A stretch of DNA of 64,000 bases from Rhodohalobacter sp. 614A. GTDB taxonomy: Bacteria; Bacteroidota; Rhodothermia; Balneolales; Balneolaceae. Below are positions 16,429 to 45,968 of the stretch, one piece after another. Position 1 is the stretch's first letter; every line of letters starts with the position of its first letter. The position numbers and the translations under genes were made by a program. A model generated the notes under the pieces. That model was not told the DNA's origin. It saw only the letters and a list, made by a program, of their open reading frames with translations, and did no database searches. The stretch is from positions 220,273 to 284,272 of the forward strand of contig NZ_JAKEDS010000001.1 in NCBI RefSeq assembly GCF_021462415.1, written 5' to 3'.

Positions 16429-16512
16429 TGTTGCAAAGTTATTCATTGGGTGAGTGTCGAAGGCAAAATCTTGGTTTTTTGCTTTTACTCATCCGATGAT
16501 TTTTTCTCCTCT

Positions 16513-16634
16513 ACTTGTTCCGAAGGTCTCCTTCGGATACACACATTCTTGAAGCTCTGCTTCAAATTTAATTGAGTAGGAGAAGCAGGGCTTCCGGCGG
16601 ACATTCCGAAGCAGGAGCTTCGGAACGAGATTAA
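16513..16634. mobile_element. REP-type element, probable non-autonomous derivative of the transposase relic at 44844-45540
   Basis: This 122-bp stretch joins two pieces that each match one end of the transposase relic. Its left part (16513-16566: ACTTGTTCCGAAGG, then TTGAAGCTCTGCTTC) matches 44844-44893. Its right part (16582-16634: GAAGCAGGGCTTCC, then TTCCGAAG and GGAACGAG) matches 45491-45540. The transposase core is absent. Each half carries small hairpins such as CCGAAGGTCTCCTTCGG. It lies between convergent genes, so it interrupts nothing. Confidence 0.75.
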
Positions 16635-16641
16635 TGGAATT

Positions 16642-43740: not shown

Positions 43741-44832
43741 ATGGCTAACACTATTTCAAGAAAAACATTCCTAAAAATAAGTGGGGCAACTTTAGCTGTT
43801 TCGGCAATCGGATTTCCCAACATTCTTATTCCTCAAAGCAAAGAAAAACTTGGAGTGGCGTTAGTCGGCCTTGGAAGTTACAGCACCGGCCGCTTGGCAC
43901 CCGGACTTCAGCAAACCCGGCACTGTGAATTGCGGGGAATTGTAACCGGTTCACCCGAAAAAATACCTGTTTGGCAGGAACGGCATGGAATTCCCGACAG
44001 CAATGTGTATAACTATGAAAACATGCACGAAATTGCTGACAATGATGATATTGATATTGTGTATGTGGTGGTGCCGACCGGACTCCATGCCAAATATTCC
44101 ATCATCGCTGCCAAAGCCGGAAAGCACGTTTGGTGCGAAAAACCAATGGCTATGAATGTAGAGGAATGCCAGGCGATAATTGATGCGATGGAAAAGGACA
44201 AGCAACTGGCAATTGGCTACCGGTTACAGCATGAACCAAATAACCAGGCGATTATTCGCTATGCAAAAGAACAAACGTACGGCGCAGTTACAAAGATACG
44301 GACGGGTGCCGGTTACGACGGCTACCATGAAGATGGAAACTGGCGGAAAAATGCAGAGCTCGGTGGCGGAGCTTTATATGATATGGGGGTTTACAACGTA
44401 AATGCCATACGATATGCTACAGGAATGGAGCCGGTAGCGGCCCGCGGTGTTCAAAGTGTGGTTCGAAAAGATGTCTATACAGAAGTGGATGAAATGACCC
44501 GCTTTGAACTTGAATTCGAAAACGGCATGACCTGTTTTGGTGAAACCAGCTTTGGTAAATCCGTGAATTATCTTGAAGCTGAGTACGAAAATGGATGGGC
44601 CTATTTGAAACCGTTTCAGAATTATTCCGGCGTTCAGGGAAGAACAAGTGATGGTACGGTTTTACCGGAAGATCCCGGACACCAGCAAGCCCGCCAAATG
44701 GATGACAATGCACTCGCCATCAAAAATAATCAGCCTAATATTGCTCCCGGTATTGAAGGATTGAAAGACATCCGGATTATCGAAGCGATCATGGAAAGTT
44801 CGAGGAAAGGAAACGTAAGGATTGAGATTTAA
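43741..44832 (+). CDS. Gfo/Idh/MocA-family oxidoreductase with twin-arginine-like leader (363 aa)
   Basis: NAD(P)-dependent sugar oxidoreductase. The leader TISRKTFLKISGATLAVSA is twin-arginine-like with RK, as in glucose-fructose oxidoreductase, which is exported with its cofactor. The Rossmann part starts LGVALVGLGSYSTGRL near residue 36; GKHVWCEKPMAMNVEEC carries the conserved EKP near residue 130, and the C-terminal domain has GGGALYDMGVYNVNA. The substrate is probably a sugar or inositol-type polyol. It is followed by the transposase relic. Confidence 0.88.
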   Translation: MANTISRKTFLKISGATLAVSAIGFPNILIPQSKEKLGVALVGLGSYSTGRLAPGLQQTRHCELRGIVTGSPEKIPVWQERHGIPDSNVYNYENMHEIADNDDIDIVYVVVPTGLHAKYSIIAAKAGKHVWCEKPMAMNVEECQAIIDAMEKDKQLAIGYRLQHEPNNQAIIRYAKEQTYGAVTKIRTGAGYDGYHEDGNWRKNAELGGGALYDMGVYNVNAIRYATGMEPVAARGVQSVVRKDVYTEVDEMTRFELEFENGMTCFGETSFGKSVNYLEAEYENGWAYLKPFQNYSGVQGRTSDGTVLPEDPGHQQARQMDDNALAIKNNQPNIAPGIEGLKDIRIIEAIMESSRKGNVRIEI

Positions 44833-44843
44833 TTAACATTATT

Positions 44844-45540
44844 ACTTGTTCCGAAGCTCTGCTTCGAAATACACCACTTTGAAGCTCCGCTTCTATAAAA
44901 AAAAGTGTAAGGTTTTTGCCCAATTAAGTTCATACTATAAAGAACTGTTGTTATGGGGCGAAGCCGTTACAAAATTTACGAAACGGAATATCTACACTTC
45001 CTTACCAGTAGTATTGTTGATGGAATTCCGTTATTTGCCAATCCAGAAATTGTAAATTTAATACTCGAAGGGCTCCAATTCCTTCAGAAATCAAGAAATG
45101 TTGATCTGTATGCTTATGTGATTATGGAGAATCATCTCCATTTCATTGCAAGCATGAAGGTTTAACTAAGAAGTTGAAAAATTTTAAATCATTTACAGCT
45201 CGTCAAATCATAAATTTTCTTGAGAACGGAAGCCATCATCGATTGCTGAAACAATTCAAACAAGCAAAGCTAAAGCATAAAAACCAGAGTAAATACCAGA
45301 TTTGGCAGGAAGGGTTTTATGCAAAACAGATTACTACTGCTGATATGATGGTGAAAAGATAGAATATATTCAGAATAACCCAGTTAAACGTGGATATGTT
45401 GATGAGCCCGAGCATTGGAGATATTCTTCTGCTCGGAATTATTTAGAATTGGAGAGCTTCATTCCAATTACAGTATACAAATGGTGAATGGAAGCAGAGC
45501 TTCCAATGTGCGTTCCGAAGGGGACCTTCAGAACGAGTAA
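44844..45540. mobile_element. REP-associated (Y1) transposase element, decayed
   Basis: A 697-bp unit bounded by hairpin-bearing ends. The left end (44844-44895) contains CCGAAGCTCTGCTTCG and GAAGCTCCGCTTC; the right end (45491-45540) contains GAAGCAGAGCTTC and TTCCGAAGGGGACCTTCAGAA. The ends are imperfect inverted copies (outer motif TTGTTCCGAAG against CTCGTTCTGAAG). The transposase frame lies between them. The same two ends, without the gene, form the element at 16513-16634. Confidence 0.8.
44953..45487 (+). pseudogene. REP-associated tyrosine transposase (Y1/IS200-like), two frameshifts
   Basis: Remnant of a single-strand DNA transposase of the REP-associated (RAYT) type. The first frame (44953-45165) holds the opening MGRSRYKIYETEYLHFL and the metal-binding HxH motif in VIMENHLHFIAS. 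After a one-base shift near 45145-45152 the frame continues KHEGLTKKLKNFKSFTARQI to about 45350, and after a second shift near 45351 it continues EKIEYIQNNPVKRGYVDEPE to a stop at 45487. These three pieces reassemble into a normal RAYT of about 178 residues, so the gene has been inactivated by two small indels. Confidence 0.85.
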
Positions 45541-45563
45541 AAACTATCTTAAACCTACTTAGA

Positions 45564-45968
45564 TTAACGGTGTAAAAAATTTCCTGAAAAGATCCTTTCT
45601 TTATCTGAAACAGCCTGATCAAACAGGTAAATCCAAGCCCGTATTTTTTCGCCACTTTCTAATAGAACGGATTTCACCCTTCGTATAAATTCATGCGGCT
45701 CAGGGTCATGAGAAGAGCATCCTTCATATTGATCCAATTGACTCAAAAGAACTTTCTGATTTTTGATTTGATACACTTCGCCAATCACTTTATCACTTGA
45801 ATCATCGGATTCTATCACGCCGGGATACCATTCAATCATATACAGTTTTCCCTGAAAAGTGGCTTTTCCAATGAACTCCGCGTGGTCTTGCAATACGGAC
45901 TTTACAGGTGAATCAAATTCACTTCGAAGAGAACCGTACACGAAAATATAATCGCACGTTTTATCCAC
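45564..45968 (-). CDS. Gamma-glutamylcyclotransferase-like (AIG2/GGCT fold) protein (134 aa)
   Basis: Small GGCT-fold protein. The glycine-rich substrate loop FVYGSLRSEF (near residue 9) is diagnostic, and the catalytic glutamate is probably in QLDQYEG near residue 82. Enzymes of this fold cyclise gamma-glutamyl amines to 5-oxoproline, but specificity varies. It is the last gene of the metH operon, its start overlapping the DinB stop by 8 nt. Confidence 0.85.
   Translation of the reverse strand: MDKTCDYIFVYGSLRSEFDSPVKSVLQDHAEFIGKATFQGKLYMIEWYPGVIESDDSSDKVIGEVYQIKNQKVLLSQLDQYEGCSSHDPEPHEFIRRVKSVLLESGEKIRAWIYLFDQAVSDKERIFSGNFLHR

Follow-up and report, generated by a model that had tools for sequence, protein, structure and literature searches.

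RAYTs (REP-associated tyrosine transposases) are regarded as domesticated, immobile transposases of unclear use. Immobility as a single copy is a reported behaviour of RAYTs and not part of their definition. Among the described systems, the REPtrons of subclass 2.6 (Quentin 2018) come closest to the locus studied here: passages of that publication give a protein length of about 179 aa, the motifs NH[LIV]H, WQ and YIH[QN]NP, and flanking structures without GT[AG]G (PMC6006769), and according to passages of three papers the RAYTs of this subclass are those of Bertels group 5 (PMC6006769, PMC8049555, PMC8266576). Subclass 2.4 also fits NHIH and YIHNNP, but its members are described in the same passages as 194 aa long with GT[AG]G REPs (PMC6006769). 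REPINs are described, in a passage on them, as paired inverted REPs (PMC8049555). In TIRtrons, according to a further passage, a tyrosine transposase lies between terminal inverted repeats, with some copies being repeated (PMC3733652); 20 of 26 TIRYTs are assigned to subclass 2.1, with added HTH domains, in the passage concerned (PMC6006769). Concerning mobility, REPtrons are described as not moving in the literature passages, while a passage of one study reports that second RAYTs occur at new positions in the chromosome, without deciding between duplication and transfer (PMC3686654).

The present locus is situated in a window of 64,000 nucleotides, which is the whole stretch analysed (G000:C1:220273-284272), from a 4.69-Mb Rhodohalobacter genome in 10 contigs (phylum Balneolota; G000 in the following). 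It is organized as a REP-RAYT-REP unit of about 700 bp (window positions 44838-45544). Its neighbours, with names given by eye, are an oxidoreductase-like gene on the left (43741-44832) and a gamma-glutamylcyclotransferase-like gene on the right (45564-45968). The left-end REP (44838-44900, plus strand; REP model 65.9 bits) carries behind its foot TACTTG two hairpins (44852-44866 and 44881-44893), the main stem being partly decayed. It is followed by a promoter-like motif, TGTAAGG-N16-TTCATAC (44906-44935, plus strand; G000:C1:265178-265207), which begins 47 nt upstream of the ATG of the RAYT remnant and has its last base 17 nt upstream of it. The gene itself (44953-45487, 535 bp, plus strand) is spread over three reading frames: an N-terminal part with the HxH motif (44953-45165), a middle part (45153-45362), and a part with the tyrosine region and the C-terminus (45344-45487, stop codon at 45485-45487). 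The right-end REP is inverted (45484-45544, minus strand; 74.4 bits) and bears its hairpins at 45511-45535 and 45489-45505, with the foot TACTCG at the outer edge. Both ends belong to the training set of the REP model, and their own scores are not independent of it. A REPIN of the same REP family stands elsewhere in the window (16507-16636, with REPs at 16507-16570 on the plus and 16575-16636 on the minus strand, 66.6 and 57.7 bits), between two converging open frames. The RAYT gene is flanked by inverted REPs of a type that is also dispersed in the genome, and the feature is probably an autonomous REPtron that lost its activity recently; it has a promoter-like motif of its own, is framed by two inverted double-hairpin REPs, and would have moved REPINs and at times itself.

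The three pieces of the remnant match the NCBIfam model of the REP-associated tyrosine transposase (NF047646) in the correct order, each under the whole-protein cut-off (first frame, profile positions 4-65, E 1.8e-10; stretch 45174-45359 of the second frame, 77-120, E 0.0036; third frame, 122-146, E 3.1e-6), and three intact relatives pass this model with 97.9, 98.2 and 105.1 bits at a cut-off of 80. The match to Pfam Y1_Tnp (PF01797) expected in the earlier note exists as well, but with 21.9 bits (15.8 for the first piece alone) it stays below the cut-off of 23, which one of the three intact relatives passes (P0003, 25.0 bits). The columns of N60, H61 and H63 are invariant and Tyr 139 is found in 15 of 16 aligned relatives, marking the HUH motif and the predicted catalytic tyrosine. 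By sequence, TnpA_REP (4er8) is the sole solved chain at an E of at most 1 (E 0.0012), with both the HUH and the tyrosine regions aligning to it, the HUH stretch not significantly; the predicted structure (pLDDT 82.7) is likewise nearest to 4er8 (E 1.7e-7, TM 0.68), compared with a TM of 0.41-0.49 for IS200-type chains. The three intact relatives are 178 aa long and carry NHIH, WQ and YIHNNP, the remnant having YIQNNP.

By its length, its motifs and its REP foot ACTYG without GT[AG]G, the family fits the published description of subclass 2.6 in these features. With the REPtrons of that subclass, as described in passages of PMC6006769, it shares a Bacteroidota-type RAYT of about 179 aa with NH[LIV]H, WQ and YIH[QN]NP, flanks without GT[AG]G, and copies elsewhere in the genome; unlike them, it exhibits stable double-hairpin ends with a common foot, a promoter-like motif held in common with DNA-uptake genes, and an apparent movement of the unit. 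Inverted REP pairs scattered through a genome with a cognate RAYT are also what the passage on REPINs describes, whereas here the RAYT-bearing unit itself seems to spread as well (PMC8049555). TIRtrons and TIRYTs resemble the unit in that a tyrosine transposase is flanked by terminal inverted repeats, with repeated copies in some, but the GGGGWSAS repeat motif given for TIRtrons in the passage concerned was not seen in the ends here (PMC3733652).

Concerning the ends, the arms 44853-44865 and 45491-45503 are inverted repeats at 13 of 13 positions and the arms 44878-44896 and 45488-45506 at 84%. Folded as single strands, the two ends are more stable than all of 200 shuffled sequences (left -8.6 kcal/mol, z -3.8; right -15.5 kcal/mol, z -7.0). 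The hairpin-bearing imperfect inverted ends claimed in the earlier note are borne out by these values; its description of both ends as intact is too strong, for pairs have been lost from the left main stem, leaving the left end weaker than in an intact homologue (-8.6 against -15.9 kcal/mol). The BLASTN comparison of the ends with the genome that the same note proposed gave 12 further matches in G000, of the ends only and obtained without the model (best E 2.4e-11, some places being hit twice). With a loose consensus and manual selection, 47 REPs were chosen from G000 and two congeneric genomes, G005 and G015; in their alignment, two hairpins follow the foot ACTYG. Eight of the 11 main-stem pairs are changed on both sides, and 94.2% of the cells in both hairpins are paired; none of 500 shuffles attained the covariation score, and four of 500 attained as many two-sided changes. 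The second hairpin is nearly invariant, its outermost pair remaining unformed in 27 of the 47. Among relatives across several phyla, an inverted repeat from flank to flank exceeds the best of 200 shuffles at 38 of 46 scored loci, some narrowly (50 loci were given, two with short flanks and two without a hit; two genes were entered under two handles each, and one of these genes gave a tie under L047 and a pass under L169). Many of these loci have the foot CTCGTTCC and GGAATGC in common.

The genomes with homologous units also contain dispersed REPs and REPINs of this family. At an E of at most 0.01, the model finds 31 REPs in G000, 134 in G005, 84 in G015, 20 in G023 and 10 in G019, and between none and seven in the remaining 23 of the 28 genomes of the genus; since 150 candidates were scored per genome, the larger counts may be too low. 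The model was trained on G000, G005 and G015. High REP numbers accompany intact units of the subfamily of the remnant, with its own genome being intermediate, a correlation over few genomes. By hand count, the best 150 hits include 17 of the 31 REPs of G000, 91 of 134 in G005 and 42 of 84 in G015, shares that indicate no clear extra decay in G000. A decay of the REPs after loss of the enzyme is not supported, the scores in G000 not being clearly lower than in the relatives, and a dying REP family is not borne out either, with 31 REPs remaining. One inverted pair in G000 (G000:C3:35763-37410; L127:1764-3411) stands 1.5 kb apart around a gene for a 440-aa membrane protein, by eye a TrkH-type transporter; no RAYT was seen inside this composite. 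In print, the matches listed for short DNA words of the REP motif all looked unrelated, and no paper was found with both Rhodohalobacter and 'repetitive extragenic palindromic'.

The promoter-like motif is not confined to the remnant. The pattern TGTAAGGN17TCWWAM precedes 14 of 21 RAYTs of the genus, some with identities of about 35%, the other 7 being without it. G000 contains 27 motif sites and G005 and G015 34 each, against 1, 0 and 2 for a reversed-pattern control; seven more Balneolaceae genomes contain 13-34 each, against 0-2. Within 150 nt upstream of the RAYT, the motif is absent in L024, from another Balneolaceae genus, and in all 15 relatives checked outside the Balneolaceae. Its second half varies with lineage, being mostly GTTCATAC, GCTCTWAC or GTCTWAC, and the RAYTs seen bear the form of their host.

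In G000, 23 of the 27 sites have an open frame of at least 60 aa starting within 220 nt, a permissive criterion; 20 of these frames and the remnant were scanned with profiles, two being left out. The genes behind the motif include those for ComEC, RadC, ComEA, YifB/ComM, SSB and RecA, four four-helix-bundle proteins, two GxxExxY proteins, an IS200 transposase and a partial integron integrase, together with weak matches to DUF559, a RAYT and a TPR-type protein and three genes without a name; the motif gene on contig C5 (L295) is a RAYT by BLAST. In a second genome, G030, a frame is found at 29 of 30 sites, and all 29 were scanned: RecA, SSB, RadC, ComEC, YifB, RecQ, RecF, RecJ, an integron integrase, two HU proteins, seven four-helix-bundle proteins, one GxxExxY protein, a PAS-domain protein, one weak TPR-type match, three RAYTs (one just under the cut-off) and five genes without a name. 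In CP030887.1, a one-contig metagenome-assembled genome (MAG) of Balneolaceae ECT2AJA-110-D, a RAYT lies behind 3 of 20 sites, one of the three bearing a TAG; 16 of the other 17 sites have a frame, and the 11 scanned gave RecA, SSB, RadC, ComEC, YifB, two four-helix-bundle proteins, a GxxExxY protein, a weak DUF559 match and two without a name. comEC, radC, yifB/comM, ssb and recA, and RAYTs too, are accordingly found behind the motif in all three annotated genomes.

ComEC is the DNA-import channel. From the position of the motif and the names of the neighbouring genes, we infer that it is the promoter of a DNA-uptake regulon and that RAYT expression would be tied to DNA uptake. A DNA-damage or general stress regulon marked by TGTAAGG-N16-NTCWWAC would also have recA and ssb among its targets, as is the case in all three annotated genomes, and could take in recQ, recF and recJ, which are targets in G030; we regard this reading as rather unlikely, as comEC and yifB/comM are targets in the three genomes as well, and comEA in G000. 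Among the literature matches listed, a link between RAYTs and competence was not found (one RAYT paper mentions natural competence in unrelated passages), and words related to the motif gave nothing relevant by title and start of abstract. Four-helix-bundle and GxxExxY proteins recur behind the motif (G000, G030, G060; L250-L296, L327-L373), and they may represent mobile cassettes exploiting the regulon of DNA uptake. The partial integron integrase of G000 (G000:C3, L288:1491-1814, minus strand) has 108 aa, its best match covering the first 87 of 315 positions, and the integrase of G030 (L331), also behind the motif, is of full length.

The complete unit with its ends was found three more times, in G005 (contig C9, 78% DNA identity; C19, 77%) and in G015 (C63, 77%), and the homology breaks off at the REP edges, which in the query of 801 bases are positions 42-44 and 742-744; 13 of 58 genomes, G000 included, give any match to this query. 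Each of the three copies encodes an intact 178-aa protein and has both ends conserved. Copies with an intact frame, which the earlier note had envisaged as the active source, thus exist, but in two other species. An intact source of the subfamily was not found in G000, where BLASTN finds elsewhere only the ends; the other RAYT of G000 found by protein search is remote (36% identity), and further Y1 genes are reached by Pfam only.

The neighbours of the copies, named by eye from open frames, differ: an M16 peptidase gene and asnS in G015, asnS and a nitrilase gene in G005, and adh and trpB, likewise in G005. At the site of the remnant, G015 has neither REP nor RAYT, and G005 has no RAYT and a REPIN of about 150 bp, which starts about 100 bp past the gene orthologous to the neighbour of the remnant. 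The adh-trpB site is without REP in G000; in G015 its two parts lie on separate contigs, and REPs are present but no RAYT. RAYTs are absent from the asnS-nitrilase interval of G015 and from between the M16 gene and asnS in G005, and none was found near asnS in G000, where the gene after asnS differs. As the intergenic regions are too diverged to be aligned, these comparisons demonstrate the absence of the RAYT and not exact empty sites. A 33-bp palindrome (AGATCCGCGAAGTTT...) stands on both sides of one G005 unit (L019:1434-1466 and 2234-2266), and a similar copy without a unit between asnS and the nitrilase gene in G015; it looks like a separate repeat family.

Seventeen genomes, one of them already in the genome set, were reached through named loci, and eight gave more than one match, some remote or partial. 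CP030887.1 contains two units, near 733 kb and 3269 kb (2.5 Mb apart, or 0.95 Mb if the contig is circular), which share 98.5% identity across 726 bp (CCTCGTTCC to GGAACGAG) and are both open over 178 aa; their flanks have no similarity past the unit, and no target duplication was seen by eye. A second pair, 80% over 716 bp, is found in a gammaproteobacterial MAG. Similarity over the whole unit exists in these two of the six multi-copy genomes compared; G062, G066, G068 and G073, whose copies have in common short stretches, the gene only, or nothing at the sensitivity used, were discarded as examples of unit mobility. In a pair from Thiomargarita and Thiotrichaceae, the 95% stretch spans the gene with little flank and leaves out the REP upstream of the L170 gene. 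Several of the genomes, among them the one with the 98.5% pair, are MAGs, and the genomes are few in all.

The unit is accordingly neither single-copy nor, it appears, fixed in place, lying at differing loci in three genomes and as a 98.5% pair in one chromosome. Differing loci, homology that ends at the REP edges and a nearly identical pair with unrelated flanks suggest that the REP-RAYT-REP unit moves as a whole, like an insertion sequence, which appears to contradict the immobility of REPtrons stated in the literature passages. REP clusters are frequent at the sites, so that a displacement of the unit could also result from REPs recombining with each other. The REPtron could then be domesticated and never transpose as a unit, its positions stemming from homologous recombination between REP clusters, with or without a preceding gene transfer. 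REP clusters do flank some copies, the G005 REPIN and the orthologue of the remnant's neighbour gene are separated by about 100 bp, the palindrome occurs on both sides of one G005 unit, most multi-copy genomes compared are without unit-long similarity, and the literature passages state that REPtrons do not move. We nevertheless consider this explanation unlikely, because the 98.5% pair is devoid of homology outside the unit and G000 shows no REP at the adh-trpB site, where one G005 copy lies.

The intact protein, a HUH/Y1 endonuclease, would recognise the foot and the hairpins of each REP in single-stranded DNA and would, by cutting and joining at REPs, move REPINs and at times the whole unit. 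Via TGTAAGG-N16-NTCWWAC, the RAYT would be made together with the DNA-uptake genes, i.e., as single-stranded DNA enters the cell; incoming or lagging-strand single-stranded DNA would be the substrate, through which units and REPINs could spread. That the RAYT REPtrons of Balneolota are competence-coupled single-strand mobile elements with an uptake-regulon promoter, whose REPs and units use natural transformation to spread inside a genome and from one genome to another, is a tentative proposal, towards which we do not quite lean. Under it, further small genes of sporadic occurrence behind the motif (four-helix-bundle, GxxExxY, integron integrase, IS200-type) would exploit the same period. The motif, common to comEC, recA and ssb, points to a time of action that can be tested, namely DNA uptake, when the presumed single-stranded substrate is present.

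In an alignment with the three intact homologues, the gene in G000 has one base missing near 45152 and one near 45353 and no further indels; its first frame stops shortly past the first frameshift (at 45165). The HxH motif (ENHLHF) lies in this frame and the tyrosine region (YIQNNPV) in the third, such that no simple product could hold both. By parting the two, the single-base deletions should leave this copy without an enzyme, while its REPs remain. The earlier reading of the locus as the relic of a Y1-type, REP-associated transposase that still has its ends, broken by two single-base frameshifts and with the HxH motif in the rebuilt frame, is well supported in these respects, given the three NF047646 matches, the REPs on both sides, the two missing bases and ENHLHF in the first frame. 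Its description as a dated example is not: the ratio of nonsynonymous to synonymous singletons is 18:18 in the relic and 42:48 in the three intact copies (Fisher p = 0.84), and since the ratios do not differ significantly, the break looks recent and yields no date. Two one-base indels without an excess of nonsynonymous change would also be expected if the gene were intact in the organism and both frameshifts were sequencing errors. This is quite improbable, as 50 open frames of at least 100 aa tile about 88% of the window (overlaps counted), which would make two errors within one 535-bp gene unlikely, and the left hairpin is weakened as well. Another relic is the third RAYT of the clade in CP030887.1 (L223:1498-2031, minus strand, near 2834 kb), which is interrupted by one TAG and has a flanking inverted repeat.

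An ordinary IS200/IS605 element would have the Y1 fold, the hairpin ends and the apparent unit movement, but is very improbable here, given that the intact relatives, at 97.9-105.1 bits, lie above the cut-off of 80 for the RAYT model, that the IS200 model NF033573 is matched by one of the three with 17.7 bits at a cut-off of 55, and that REPs and REPINs are abundant in these genomes, to our knowledge not an IS200 feature. As a RAYT unit, it seems to work like IS200/IS605 without being one: the HUH/Y1 fold and the hairpin ends are the same, and so would be a unit movement without visible target duplication, as suggested by the one aligned pair, whereas the protein is a RAYT by NCBIfam and by nearest fold, and the REP/REPIN population is dispersed. 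Movement of whole RAYT units, if true, would constitute a link to IS200/IS605. Two further arrangements were observed among the distant relatives: in the gammaproteobacterial MAG, one unit is followed directly by a partial second copy of its 3' half with the right end (L177:2891-3857), and in Thiomargarita nelsonii and the Thiotrichaceae MAG (L170, L172), the RAYTs are 95% identical over 578 bp with differing nearby flanks, and a 94% identical downstream stretch is displaced by about 1.4 kb.
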